Positions 9,621 to 13,602 of a DNA stretch of 13,602 nt are shown here, piece after piece (position 1 is the first letter of the stretch; every line of letters starts with the position of its first letter). The stretch comes from Chitinophagaceae bacterium (GTDB lineage Bacteria > Bacteroidota > Bacteroidia > Chitinophagales > Chitinophagaceae). The translations under genes were made by a program, and so were the position numbers. The notes below the pieces were generated by a model that did no database searches, was not told where the DNA came from, and saw only the letters and a program-made list of their open reading frames with translations. Location of the stretch: the NCBI GenBank assembly GCA_947472635.1, contig CANJDY010000032.1:1-13602 (forward strand), in the 5' to 3' direction.

Positions 9621-10274
9621 TTAATTCGCCAATTCTGATAATACTTGGTCAAGTCTTTCTTTCAAGTTTTCATAACTAGTGTAGCCTCTAGACAATAGAT
9701 GAAACTTAGTTTCACTGAGCTGCAGTAAAACTGCTGGATAACCGGTAATTTGTAATTGTTTGCAAAGAGCAAATTCATAGTAGGCCATTTCCTTGTAGGC
9801 TTCCGATTTTAATTTAGCATAGAATGTTTCGGGCTGAATTGAATATTTTTCCAGTAAATGCCGATAGGATTCGTCATCGCAGAGATCTCTTCCTTCAAAA
9901 TGAAGGGCATATTGAAGATCTGTTACAAACTCAACCTGCCGATCTGGATAAAATTCCTTGAAAATGCAAAGTGCGATGGCAGGTTTTTCAGATGCCGGAT
10001 ACCAATCACTTAAGTCTGGATGGTTGATATGCCATAAATAATCATTTCCAAATTTAACTCCGGTATGCTCTTCAACTACGCTATAGGCTTTTTGAATGTA
10101 ATCGGCAGTAATGCTAATGTGCTTGGCTTCTTCATCGAGAATCATTCCCCCACTTAACACTTCAAAATCAAGACGATCCTTGTATTGATCCGCGATTATT
10201 TTTATTACTGGGCTAAATCCATAGCACCAGCCGCAGTAGGCGTCGTAACAGTAAAGTAAGGTAGGTTTTTCCAT
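9621..10274 (-). CDS. DsbA/FrnE-family thioredoxin-fold oxidoreductase
   Basis: 217 residues from ATG 10274. The first strand leads into CYDAYCGWCYGF, giving a CGWC redox motif at Cys14-Cys17; ITGYPAVLL puts the expected cis-proline at residue 180. The long helical insert between them is typical of the DsbA/FrnE (2-hydroxychromene-2-carboxylate isomerase-like) group. There is no signal peptide, so it is probably a cytoplasmic thiol-disulfide protein. A longer reading starting at 10313 (13 more residues) would begin inside the REP array and is unlikely; MEKPTLLYCYDAYC fits the family start. It is downstream of the RAYT on the same strand, and the array 10300-10350 lies only about 26 bases before its start. 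It shares the terminator at 9560-9592 with the convergent gene. Confidence 0.87.
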   Translation of the reverse strand: MEKPTLLYCYDAYCGWCYGFSPVIKIIADQYKDRLDFEVLSGGMILDEEAKHISITADYIQKAYSVVEEHTGVKFGNDYLWHINHPDLSDWYPASEKPAIALCIFKEFYPDRQVEFVTDLQYALHFEGRDLCDDESYRHLLEKYSIQPETFYAKLKSEAYKEMAYYEFALCKQLQITGYPAVLLQLSETKFHLLSRGYTSYENLKERLDQVLSELAN

Positions 10275-10299: not shown

Positions 10300-10350
10300 T
10301 TCCGGTGACTCACCGGAGGGAGTGACTCACCGGAGGGAGTGACTCACCGG
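10300..10350. repeat. REP triplet array 1 (17-bp period) between RAYT and dsbA-like gene
   Basis: Three copies of GTGACTCACCGG start at 10305, 10322 and 10339, exactly 17 bases apart. They are separated by AGGGA twice and preceded by TTCCG. The first unit is the 15-base near-palindrome CCGGTGACTCACCGG, which folds as CCGGTG/CACCGG with a three-base loop. The array ends three bases before the complement of the RAYT stop codon (10354). The central base is C here and G in the other two arrays. Confidence 0.9.
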
Positions 10351-10353
10351 GTG

Positions 10354-11031
10354 TTATTCCAATTTTGATGAGGGCCAATCTTTTTGATAAAAATATGCTG
10401 CTTGTTGATTATGAGTAAAGATAAAATTATTTATCCCATTAAAAAATTCTAGTACTTTTTCAGAATCTACCCAGCTATGGTCATTTTGTACTACTGGCAG
10501 GTAAGATGAAAAAGGATAATTTTTGTAATCCTTTACCAGTTGATGTTTCTGAGCGTTGGCATTGGTATAGATGATGGCTTGCTGCAAATGAGCTTCCCCA
10601 TTAATTTGTATTCTTTTAAAGGGCTTTTGAAAAATACCTCCCTTCCTTTCATATTTATTGTTGACATAATTGGCATAGGAAACCAAAAAGCTGTTCATTT
10701 GACGCTCTATCACTTTATTGAAAAAAACTTCATTTTCATGCTCGTCATAAAAATTATTCATTGAATTTGTCCGCTCCTTTTTGGGAATCTGGTGTATCAA
10801 TTGATAGATAGATGCCGAGGACTTTGTTTTAATAATATGATGAGTATGGTTGGTAAGGAGACAAAAACTCCAGACGTCCAAGAAGTCCCCTGTAAATATT
10901 TTAAACCGCTCCTTAAAGGTTTTATAGTCTTGATGATCCTGAAAAAGTAAAAGCCCGTCAATGCTTTTACAAACAATATGGTAATGCTCAACTGGGGAAA
11001 AATGAGCTTTGAGTGTTTCGGGCGTGGGCAT
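10354..11031 (-). CDS. REP-associated tyrosine transposase (RAYT, Y1 transposase family)
   Basis: 225 residues. RAYTs are IS200/IS605-like single-strand nucleases thought to mobilise REP palindromes. The FCLLTNHTHHIIK segment carries the HUH-type metal motif as His62-Thr63-His64, with Thr in place of the usual hydrophobic residue. Segment RQMNSFLVSYANYVNNKYERKGGIFQKPFKR (about 110-140) matches the family core (x-RKGxLFQ-x-FKR), and QAIIYTNANAQKHQLV (about 151-166) matches the YIHxNPxxHGLV pattern, giving Tyr155 as the likely nucleophile. Full-length with no frameshift, so possibly active. Start ATG 11031. It is bracketed by REP triplets on both sides, three bases after its stop and 22 bases before its start, which ties gene and repeats together. 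Confidence 0.88.
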   Translation of the reverse strand: MPTPETLKAHFSPVEHYHIVCKSIDGLLLFQDHQDYKTFKERFKIFTGDFLDVWSFCLLTNHTHHIIKTKSSASIYQLIHQIPKKERTNSMNNFYDEHENEVFFNKVIERQMNSFLVSYANYVNNKYERKGGIFQKPFKRIQINGEAHLQQAIIYTNANAQKHQLVKDYKNYPFSSYLPVVQNDHSWVDSEKVLEFFNGINNFIFTHNQQAAYFYQKDWPSSKLE

Positions 11032-11052
11032 TTTTTCTATTTTATCTACCTC

Positions 11053-11102
11053 TTCCGGTGAGTCACCGGTAGGAGTGAGTCACCGCAACCGGTGAGTCAC
11101 CG
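11053..11102. repeat. REP triplet array 2 (17-bp period) upstream of RAYT
   Basis: Three GTGAGTCACCG cores start at 11058, 11075 and 11092, again exactly 17 bases apart, preceded by TTCCG. The six-base spacers are GTAGGA and CAACCG. The first unit is the complete CCGGTGAGTCACCGG palindrome. The array lies 22 bases upstream of the RAYT start codon, in its leader or promoter. Confidence 0.9.
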
Positions 11103-11117
11103 CCAAAGATCTCTATC

Positions 11118-11138
11118 AATATACACATTTTGTATATT
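11118..11138. promoter_or_regulatory. AT-rich palindrome between REP arrays 2 and 3
   Basis: AATATACA (11118-11125) and TGTATATT (11131-11138) form a perfect eight-base inverted repeat with a five-base loop. It lies in the 73-base AT-rich segment between the two arrays, upstream of the RAYT on the minus strand. It could be an operator, part of the RAYT promoter, or a transposase-recognised hairpin; nothing here decides between these. Confidence 0.35.
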
Positions 11139-11175
11139 ATTTCCTACAATAATCCATGTTACCGTTGGTTCCCCC

Positions 11176-11226
11176 TTCCGGTGAGTCACCGATCGCAGTG
11201 AGTCACCGGGTGGGGTGAGTCACCGG
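11176..11226. repeat. REP triplet array 3 (17-bp period) at the 3' end of polA
   Basis: Three GTGAGTCACCG cores start at 11181, 11198 and 11215, 17 bases apart, preceded by TTCCG. The spacers are ATCGCA and GGTGGG. The array ends nine bases from the polA stop codon (11236-11238 on the minus strand), a typical REP position just after a stop. The hairpins could protect the polA mRNA 3' end. Confidence 0.9.
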
Positions 11227-11235
11227 ATATAGAAA

Positions 11236-13602
11236 TTAATGCGCTACCAACCAATTATTGCCTTCTCCAATTTCTGCATCCGTAGGTACGCCATTGGGCA
11301 ATGCCAAGGCTGTTTGCATACAATGTAATATCACAGGCTTTATAATTTCCACCTCATCCTTGTGTGCATCAAACACTAATTCATCATGCACCTGCAACAA
11401 CATTTTTGATCTAAAGTTTTGTCGCTTAAATTCCGCATGAATTTTAATCATCGCCAGTTTAATCATGTCTGCCGCAGAGCCTTGGATTGGAGAGTTAATC
11501 GCATTTCGCTCAGCAAAACCACGCACAGTAAAATTAGCTGAATTAATATCCCTTAACCACCGCTTCCGCCCCATCAAGGTCTCTACATACCCTGCTTCTT
11601 TTGCAAAATTGATGGTATCATCCATATACTTTTGAATATTGGGAAATTGCTTTTTATAATTATCAATGATCTCTTTTGCCTCCGACCTTGATATGGCTAG
11701 ATTTTCTGCCAACCCAAATGCACCTTGTCCATAGATAATTCCAAAATTCACGCTCTTAGCCCGATACCGCATTTCCTTGGTCACTTCCGATTCTTCTACA
11801 TTGAACACTTTGGCTGCCGTAGCTGTATGAATGTCTTTTCCTGTTTTGAAAGCCTCACACATATTTACGTCTCCACTAATGGCGGCTACAATTCTTAATT
11901 CAATCTGCGAATAATCGGCTGATATCAATACATGATTTTCATCCCTAGGTATAAATGCTTTTCTTATCTCCCGCCCCCTTTCCGTTCGTACCGGAATATT
12001 CTGTAAGTTTGGATTGGTGCTGCTAAGTCTACCTGTTACGGCCACCGCCTGTGCATAGCTAGTGTGCACCCTGCCTGTTTTTTTATTAATCAATAAAGGC
12101 AATGCGTCAATATACGTATTCTTTAATTTGGTTAACTCTCGGAAAGTTAAAATGTCATCGCAAATTTTATTCTGGTGAGCCAATTTTGCCAGCACATCTT
12201 CGCCGGTTGCATATTGCCCTGTCTTGGTTTTTTTTGCCTTAGGATCTAGCTTTAATTTTTCAAACAACACTTCACCCAATTGTTTGGGACTTGCCAAATT
12301 GAATCGAACACCCGCCTGCTCATACACGCTCTCTTCACTTACTTTTGCTTCTATCTCCAACTGTTTACTATACACATTTAAAAAAGACTCGTCAATTCGA
12401 ATCCCTTCAAACTCCATGTCGGTTAATACTTTTACCAAAGGATTCTCTACCTCATAAAAAATCTTTTCTACTGATTTAGCAGCCAATTGAGGGAGAAAAA
12501 CATTTTTTAATTGAAGGGTGATATCAGCATCCTCCGCCGCATACTCTTTGATTATATCCAACTCCACCTCTCTCATGTTACCCTGACCCTTTCCTTTTTT
12601 CCCGATAAGTTCGGTTATGGAAACCGGCATGTAACCAAGGTATTTCGCACTAAGGGCATCCATGCTTCTTTTCCCTTCGGGCTCCAGCACATAATGCGCC
12701 AACATGGTATCAAAAATATTCCCCTTCAATGTAAAACCATACCACTTCAATATCAACAAATCATATTTTATATTCTGTCCAATCCATGTTTTGGATTCAT
12801 CATTGAATATTGACTCAAAGCTTTTTAGCAACAAGATGCATTCTTCCCTATTGTCAGAACAAGGAACATAATATCCTTCGCCTGGTAGAATGGAAAAACT
12901 CATTCCTACCAATTCCGCATTGTTAGCATCCAGTCCAGTTGTTTCTGTATCAAAACATATTTCAGGTGACGATGCCAGCAAGTTTTTTAATGCCTCAATT
13001 GATTCATGGATGTTAATCAATTGGTATTGATGGGGCGTATTGTTAATGTTTTTATCCGCTACCAAATCATTGCCAGCGCCAATTTCTGCATCGGGCTCAT
13101 TGTATACTTTCATCGCCGGCTGTTCAACTGCATTGCCAAATAAATCGAGTTGGCCATTGACTGCAATCGGATTATTTTTAACAGCAGCTGAATTGTCAGC
13201 TCCTAAATCCAAAACGATTTCTTCGCCCAGGATTCTTTTAGCCATTGCTTTAAATTCCAACTCAGTAAACACTTCTTTCAGCGCCTCGCGGTTCATCTCT
13301 TTTATCCTAAAATTTTCTTCATGAAATTCTGTTGGTACATTGATGATAATGGTCGCTAATTTTTTACTTAGAATAGCCATCTCCTTTCCTGCTCTCACTT
13401 TTTCGCCAACAGATCCTTTTATCTCATCTGCATGATCAAGTATGTTTTCCAAAGTGCCATATTCCTGTAATAATTTGGCCGCAGTTTTTTCACCAATCCC
13501 TTTTATTCCGGGAATATTATCCACTGCATCTCCCATCAAGCCCAACATGTCGATCACCTGACTTACATTATTAATTCCCCATTTGGCACAAATTTCTTCC
13601 GG
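11236..13602 (-). CDS. polA: DNA polymerase I (N-terminus beyond right window edge)
   Basis: 788 codons are visible; the frame stays open to base 13602 (PEEICAKWGINNVSQV precedes the GTG at 13557, which is therefore internal). Roughly 150 N-terminal residues, the catalytic part of the 5'-nuclease, are missing. Seen in order: the helix-hairpin-helix end of the 5'-nuclease (GDAVDNIPGIKGIGEKTA); a 3'-5' exonuclease with FDTETTG (near 12945), GQNIKYDLL and YAAEDAD, so the DEDDy proofreading residues are intact; and the polymerase domain with motif A DYSQIELR (near 11910), motif B R-x3-K-x3-F-x3-YG (near 11750, Phe kept) and motif C HDELVFD (near 11375). Functions in Okazaki fragment maturation and repair. 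The stop is followed after nine bases by REP array 3; the RAYT and DsbA-like genes follow on the same strand. Confidence 0.97.
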   Translation of the reverse strand, partial: PEEICAKWGINNVSQVIDMLGLMGDAVDNIPGIKGIGEKTAAKLLQEYGTLENILDHADEIKGSVGEKVRAGKEMAILSKKLATIIINVPTEFHEENFRIKEMNREALKEVFTELEFKAMAKRILGEEIVLDLGADNSAAVKNNPIAVNGQLDLFGNAVEQPAMKVYNEPDAEIGAGNDLVADKNINNTPHQYQLINIHESIEALKNLLASSPEICFDTETTGLDANNAELVGMSFSILPGEGYYVPCSDNREECILLLKSFESIFNDESKTWIGQNIKYDLLILKWYGFTLKGNIFDTMLAHYVLEPEGKRSMDALSAKYLGYMPVSITELIGKKGKGQGNMREVELDIIKEYAAEDADITLQLKNVFLPQLAAKSVEKIFYEVENPLVKVLTDMEFEGIRIDESFLNVYSKQLEIEAKVSEESVYEQAGVRFNLASPKQLGEVLFEKLKLDPKAKKTKTGQYATGEDVLAKLAHQNKICDDILTFRELTKLKNTYIDALPLLINKKTGRVHTSYAQAVAVTGRLSSTNPNLQNIPVRTERGREIRKAFIPRDENHVLISADYSQIELRIVAAISGDVNMCEAFKTGKDIHTATAAKVFNVEESEVTKEMRYRAKSVNFGIIYGQGAFGLAENLAISRSEAKEIIDNYKKQFPNIQKYMDDTINFAKEAGYVETLMGRKRWLRDINSANFTVRGFAERNAINSPIQGSAADMIKLAMIKIHAEFKRQNFRSKMLLQVHDELVFDAHKDEVEIIKPVILHCMQTALALPNGVPTDAEIGEGNNWLVAH

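Follow-up and report, generated by a model that had tools for sequence, protein, structure and literature searches.

The three clusters of phased repeats that surround a RAYT-like gene in the window, the whole stretch of 13,602 nucleotides that was analysed, probably go back to a dispersed hairpin element associated with RAYTs, of which they would be the tandem-array form. Judged from sequence comparison, these arrays would have inherited their period from the hairpin and would have grown by tandem duplication. It is most likely the arms of the hairpin that set the regular spacing, and not a protein that counts to three.

Phased repeat clusters in the window and in sister genomes

The repeats and the genes next to them are arranged as follows.

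9621..10274, minus strand: DsbA-family thioredoxin-like gene, downstream of the RAYT gene, with the ATG at 10274 as the preferred putative start
10305..10349: cluster 1, three 11-mers GTGACTCACCG at 10305, 10322 and 10339 with a 17-bp period, in the gap that separates the DsbA-like gene from the RAYT stop
10354..11031, minus strand: RAYT-like gene for a Y1/HUH transposase of 225 aa, flanked by clusters 1 and 2, with NHTH at 61-64 and the invariant Y122
11058..11102: cluster 2, three 11-mers GTGAGTCACCG at 11058, 11075 and 11092 with a 17-bp period, shortly before the RAYT start
11181..11225: cluster 3, three 11-mers GTGAGTCACCG at 11181, 11198 and 11215 with a 17-bp period, 10 bp downstream of the polA stop
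11236..13602, minus strand: DNA polymerase I gene (polA), truncated by the window boundary, with its stop adjoining cluster 3

Nine exact matches to GTGASTCACCG on the plus strand form three clusters of three, and all six within-cluster intervals measure 17 bp, in agreement with the preliminary description of this DNA. If one mismatch is allowed, both strands of the window together hold 15 matches, compared with 0.07 expected and a maximum of 2 in 200 shuffles. TTCCG stands ahead of each of the three clusters as had been described, but the single orientation that was derived from this edge is not proven by it, the arm being near-palindromic. The spacers had been said to vary freely, which does not apply to all of them, as both spacers of cluster 1 read GAGGGA. 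The central base is C,C,C in cluster 1 (the one at 10305-10349, which is the cluster after the RAYT because this gene lies on the minus strand) and G,G,G in clusters 2 and 3. This had been noted correctly, but it is not a conserved feature, since the furthest-upstream cluster, read in the RAYT sense, shows C,C,C in the window and G,G,G at its counterpart in locus L001. CRP/FNR-like half sites and GANTC methylation sites may also be present within GTGASTCAC. The longest reading of the DsbA-like ORF begins with a GTG at 10313, inside cluster 1; a start at the ATG at 10274 is more likely.

The window protein scores 36.3 bits against NCBIfam NF047646 (REP_Tyr_transpos), below the curated cut-off of 80, and 17.3 bits against Pfam Y1_Tnp, under the cut-off of 23. 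A search of the PDB by sequence with this protein gave no match. A 25-row alignment of the RAYT contains NHTH and the invariant Y122, which is presumably the catalytic residue. The AlphaFold2 model made from this alignment has a pLDDT of 91.1, and its best PDB match in Foldseek is 4er8_A, the structure of TnpA-REP in complex with a REP hairpin, at 15% identity and E 5.8e-7; the TM score is 0.67 when normalised by the target length and 0.50 by the query. An HUH motif, one presumably catalytic tyrosine and a Y1 transposase fold, by which RAYT / TnpA-REP proteins are recognised, are all present, and the curated family cut-off is not reached. Because the family scores are below cut-off and the best match of the model is 4er8, the 225-aa protein is a remote RAYT by sequence. 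The earlier claim that REP-like palindromes flank a RAYT is supported.

An alignment of the RAYT was run against genome contigs and gave 17 loci, and the sister genomes were reached through this gene. The genomes compared are mostly draft MAGs, in which repeats may be misassembled. The RAYT at L001 is 94% and that at L002 82% identical to the one in the window. The three RAYT-flanking sites carry 3/3/3 copies in the window, 3/2/5 at L001 and 6/2/4 at L002, and other loci hold 2-8 copies, so the triplet cannot be upheld as the unit. Genome-wide, GTGANTCACCG is found 82 times in G001 (3.1 Mb), whereas the reversed control pattern has 4 matches there. It occurs 29 times in G002, 17 times in G008 and 7 times in G004; each of the remaining four genomes (of eight) has 1-3 matches, and there the reversed control scores equal or higher. 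Cluster sizes were counted in the fetched motif-bearing loci, a subset of all matches, and copies up to 40 bp apart were grouped. For G001 this gives 17 single matches, six clusters of two, four of three, three of four and two of five copies. In these clusters 30 of the 31 intervals are 17 bp (the remaining one is 18), so the strict phasing extends to this sister genome. The fetched G002 clusters have 2 to 8 copies and 29 of 37 intervals are 17 bp; the off-period intervals of 14, 21, 25, 26, 31, 33 and 34 bp count against the explanation of the arrays as hairpin-derived. Within nine G001 arrays, 7 of 16 pairs of neighbouring spacers are identical, compared with 22 of 550 pairs from different arrays. 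In one five-copy G001 array two spacers alternate (A B A B), as expected from the duplication of a two-unit block.

That the motif represents coincidental simple repeats or a recurrent coding motif is practically out of the question. Several single matches of G001 do lie at the same coding-like positions in G002, as a conserved coding sequence would, and these are probably chance matches. For the clusters, coincidence is refuted by the excess of matches in the window and in G001 over shuffled and reversed controls.

The DNA of L002 and L003 aligns with the window on both sides of the RAYT, and that of L004 on the DsbA side. L001 resembles the window only as far as the array upstream of the RAYT (L001 ~3742, window 11235), and the place of polA in L001 is taken by two other ORFs of 484 and 723 aa. 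Either recombination has taken place at this array or the assembly is wrong there. Two G001 arrays (L050) are absent from the matching G002 interval, and the junctions are not alignable.

Inverted hairpin pairs and RAYT genes in related genomes

Six genomes (G003, G004, G005, G008, G134 and G465) carry the inverted pair GTGAGTCAC...GTGACTCAC with the same arm, with periods of 17-20 bp that are mostly 18, 19 or 20. Because the arm GTGA-S-TCAC is near-palindromic, the inverted pair also constitutes a direct repeat, the two arms being identical at 8 of 9 positions and differing at the central base. Inverted pairs, the arrangement that REPs have in a REPIN, are the form in related genomes; the window has same-centre arrays only, with inverted G/C pairs absent and outer stems of 2-4 bp at its three clusters. 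DNA folding of three hairpin pairs gave z values of -9.9 and -16.8 (L003) and -15.2 (L225), and the arrays are far weaker than these pairs (-2.6 to -3.1 in the window and -3.6 for the five-copy L001 array), which for the window arrays speaks against a derivation from the hairpin. In G001 and G002 clusters were scored for perfect stems only, with the L054 cluster at a contig end left out. Here the outer stem measures 6-12 bp in all four two-copy pairs with G/C centres; of the other 21 clusters (16 with at least three copies), 20 have 0-4 bp. The exception is a two-copy C/C cluster with an outer stem of 14 bp. At L001 3878 the stem of the C/C pair is longer but contains a bulge, and was scored as 3.

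We propose that the basic element is an inverted pair of 9-bp arms that would form one long hairpin, as it does in the related genomes. Its near-palindromic arms would act as direct repeats separated by one period (17 bp in this lineage), and slipped-strand replication or unequal recombination between them could duplicate the 17-bp unit. Duplication of this unit would lead to arrays of 2-8 copies in which the period and mostly a single central base are kept, and most of the arrays do show both constant. We infer this step from pair to array from the copy-number differences and the repeated spacers. The adjacent RAYT is probably an HUH nuclease which recognises, or formerly recognised, the single-stranded hairpin and dispersed the element; the REPtron-like layout, the fold and the co-occurrence described below point to this role. 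At the 3' ends of genes the folded element probably acts on mRNA 3' ends or readthrough, effects that have been reported for REPs.

The preliminary description had favoured an iteron-like or multi-subunit binding array under selection on spacing. In such an operator a double-stranded array would assemble several subunits of the RAYT or of a regulator, for example in RAYT autoregulation. The strict 17-bp period within the clusters, their position at both sides of the RAYT and the near-palindromic arm, as often found in dimer operators, are compatible with this. However, the number of copies per cluster is not conserved and varies even at orthologous sites, so the fixed site number and phasing of an iteron or multi-site operator is not found. 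Moreover, the same arrays occur at many further loci of G001 and G002, relatives carry single inverted pairs with other periods, and 17 bp does not correspond to a whole number of helical turns. An operator of this kind is therefore quite improbable. It is also superfluous: in a hairpin whose inner part is 8 nt long, one arm follows the other at a distance of 17 bp.

The proposed link between hairpin and RAYT was followed in the genus of G004 (93 genomes) with the pattern GTGANYCACN{2,16}GTGRNTCAC, which also catches arrays. The pattern is present in 13 of the 93 genomes, a close RAYT (E <=1e-85) in 10 and both in 8. Accordingly, 8 of the 10 genomes with a close RAYT carry the hairpin and 5 of the 83 genomes without (Fisher p 5e-7, shared ancestry ignored), at a cut-off that was picked after the list had been viewed. 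At the search cut-off of 1e-30 the hairpin is found in 8 of 24 versus 5 of 69 genomes (p 0.004, shared ancestry ignored). The link therefore stands as a correlation within the genus but it is not strict. G465 has 13 hairpins (L224-L236) and only remote RAYT matches (3.7e-8), and G409, G443, G415 and G438 have 1-2 hairpins each with a close RAYT absent. In G006 and G403 (in-frame TAG) the RAYT is present and the hairpin pattern absent. In G465 the RAYT may have been lost, may be missing from the assembly or may be supplied by another family. The only RAYT-like locus listed in this genome (L252) holds one GTGAGCCAC. In a family sample of 394 genomes, 3 show the strict pair pattern and 82 a RAYT (E <=1e-15); one of the three, G080, has 2 hairpins and no RAYT at this cut-off. 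Most RAYT genomes of the family sample are thus without the motif, likely because the hairpins that flank their RAYTs differ in letters.

For these flanking hairpins 61 RAYT loci were scored with the omission of four (L001, L005, L006 and L007), some genomes being represented twice. A hairpin with a stem of at least 10 lies within ~300 bp of the RAYT at 47 of 57 loci, whereas only 44 of 303 same-size stretches more than 500 bp away contain one. If the longest arm of each locus is taken, 15 of 47 are more self-palindromic than their shuffles (p <=0.05), with a mean score of 3.81 versus 2.55, where related loci are not independent. Examples of such RAYT-flanking arms are GTGGTCCAC, AGTTGACAACT, GGTTGCCAACC, ACCTGACAGGT and GATATGACATATC. 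The excess in self-palindromicity is absent at many of the remoter RAYT loci, and 11 control hairpins far from RAYTs average 2.9. At L125 the flanking hairpins have the arm GATATGACATATC, and one pair shows an identical central base on both arms, possibly a second case of a change from pair to direct repeat. At L110 / L167 (G300) there are three near-identical long-loop hairpins upstream of the RAYT, with a loop of 11 nt and outer stems of only 2 bp.

Outer stems and the position of the elements at gene ends

Beyond the core, 42 of 67 hairpin elements (those near contig ends dropped) continue into a perfect outer stem of at least 6 bp. All of these belong to six genomes, in which 42 of 53 GTGASTCAC-type hairpins have an extra stem of 6-18 bp: G134 (14/21), G465 (13/13), G008 (8/10), G004 (4/5), G003 (2/2) and G005 (1/2). 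In seven other genomes none of 14 hairpins has one (G300 0/6, G080 0/2 and five genomes with one or two copies 0/6). The letters of the outer stem are different at each site. When the flanks were exchanged between elements, a stem of at least 6 bp was formed in only 10 of 1560 pairs; within G465 it was 10 of 156, where the bases adjoining the core are partly shared. The outer stems of G134 are bimodal, with 14 elements at 7-13 bp, 7 elements at 2 bp and no intermediates, as if there were two kinds of insertion or two ages.

The elements could primarily be RNA structures at 3' ends, i.e., terminators or mRNA stabilisers under selection by the host, with the RAYT as an incidental neighbour at most sites. 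As a primary explanation we consider this rather unlikely, although several observations are in favour of it. In seven non-window genomes the median distance from the stop codon of a gene pointing at the element is 7.5-24 bp, as determined with a crude ORF caller and only for elements with such a gene. The contexts of 81 elements are co-directional in 46 cases, convergent in 15 and divergent in 5, while 9 elements lie inside an ORF and 6 at an edge. For 30 of 40 outer-stem elements such a stop was present in the search range, and 23 of these 30 stems start within about 10 nt of it or overlap it. At one orthologous site (L063 in G001, L249 in G002) the element is present in both sisters and both arms differ together. 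However, a U-tract is lacking, since only 3 of 40 outer stems have a T- or A-rich edge compared with 12% of random windows. Furthermore, the co-occurrence with the RAYT clade and the presence or absence of arrays between the sisters point to a mobile origin. The mobile-element reading and the reading as 3'-end RNA structure are compatible with each other. A search of the window, L001, L002 and L003 against Rfam at gathering scores gave no match.

The outer stems may come from the insertion itself, from later template switching, from selection or from structures that existed before. If the core had been inserted at the apex of ordinary terminators, outer stems would also result, and gene ends without a core do show stems of at least 7 bp in 10 of 79 cases in G001, 8 of 66 in G002, 5 of 54 in G134, 0 of 9 in G465 and 2 of 19 in G008 (5, 3, 2, 0 and 0 after shuffling). 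This explanation is not well supported, as the edge typical of a terminator accompanies so few of the outer stems. In a search for empty sites the matches in relatives of G134 were mostly 66-74% identical over longer stretches and those of G465 yielded nothing of use, the relatives being too distant. Overlap of the outer arms with a coding end, taken as a sign of copying, is seen in 3 of 40 by the rule of the script and is uninformative. Template switching at replication is described as a route by which perfect stems are made and mended (PMC8794818).

A further, tentative and rather doubtful idea is that the outer stems are inverted target duplications. The RAYT would place the short core, with its hairpin, into single-stranded DNA immediately after a stop codon. 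Fold-back synthesis, primed or provoked by this hairpin, would then duplicate the adjacent 6-18 nt on the opposite side. If this is true, each insertion builds its own unique perfect stem, and the resulting signature of an 'inverted target-site duplication' would mark a distinct mode of spreading. In the portions of the compared literature that were covered we met no description of such spreading for Y1 transposases or REPs.

Relation to known RAYT and REP systems

The RAYT/REP kind is already known, and the tandem-array form, the self-palindromic arms and the per-site outer stems are the parts worth following. The way in which RAYTs spread REPs or keep them in place is still little understood. 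In this RAYT group the flanking hairpins change between clades and often keep self-palindromic arms, which is useful for learning what the enzyme reads. The proposed way from a hairpin to a phased array is simple, and phased arrays can pass for iterons. The per-site outer stems, finally, would be a record either of the insertion mechanism or of repeated template switching at gene ends. Among the matches listed in the open-licence literature, titles and abstracts contained nothing that describes this system or the letters of the arm.

Subclass 2.6 of TnpA-Y1 belongs mostly to Bacteroidetes, and according to the sections consulted, 'atypical secondary structures' without GT[AG]G were found there by manual inspection (Corneloup et al., 2018, PMC6006769). 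A host from the Bacteroidota and REP-like structures that recur in the genome and are without GT[AG]G are common to both, as far as these sections show. The motifs given there for subclass 2.6 are NH[LIV]H, WQ and YIH[QN]NP, whereas the window RAYT has NHTH, FQ and YTNANA (within NHTH, GGIFQ and YTNANAQKH). The remoter RAYTs of the set carry YIHxNP-like motifs and there is a general trend from YIHxNP to YTNANA; the motif table was made with crude patterns that missed or misplaced a motif in some rows, and we rely on the window row and the general trend. Because of these YIHxNP-like motifs the window RAYT may, on sequence grounds, be a derived sister lineage of subclass 2.6.

For the TIRYT/TIRtron systems, self-complementary and 'double palindromic TIRs' near tyrosine transposases are described (Figure 9 in Di Nocera et al., 2013, PMC3733652). 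In the parts of this paper that were compared, by text description, the likeness consists in tyrosine transposase genes with non-GTAG flanking repeats, some of which are self-complementary and some present as dimers or clusters. The same parts make no mention of tandem 17-bp phasing or of site-specific outer stems. Two groups of TnpA-REP are reported to have co-evolved with their own REPs (Corneloup et al., 2021, PMC8266576).

The closest parallel in layout is the REPtron of E. coli, Pseudomonas and Stenotrophomonas, in which a Y1/HUH gene is likewise flanked by palindromes that recur elsewhere, mostly in intergenic positions. Here the palindromes flank the gene in the window and recur in G001 and G002 with the 82 and 29 matches given above, and the fold of the window RAYT is nearest to 4er8. 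In difference to REPtrons, a GT[AG]G foot is not in excess: among the 67 hairpin elements scanned, a set to which the window arrays do not belong, it is found in 5 at the foot of the full stem and in 5 just outside the core, compared with 7% of random windows. The arms are self-palindromic here, and many copies form head-to-tail tandem arrays of 2-8, whereas REPtrons have single REPs or inverted REPIN pairs.
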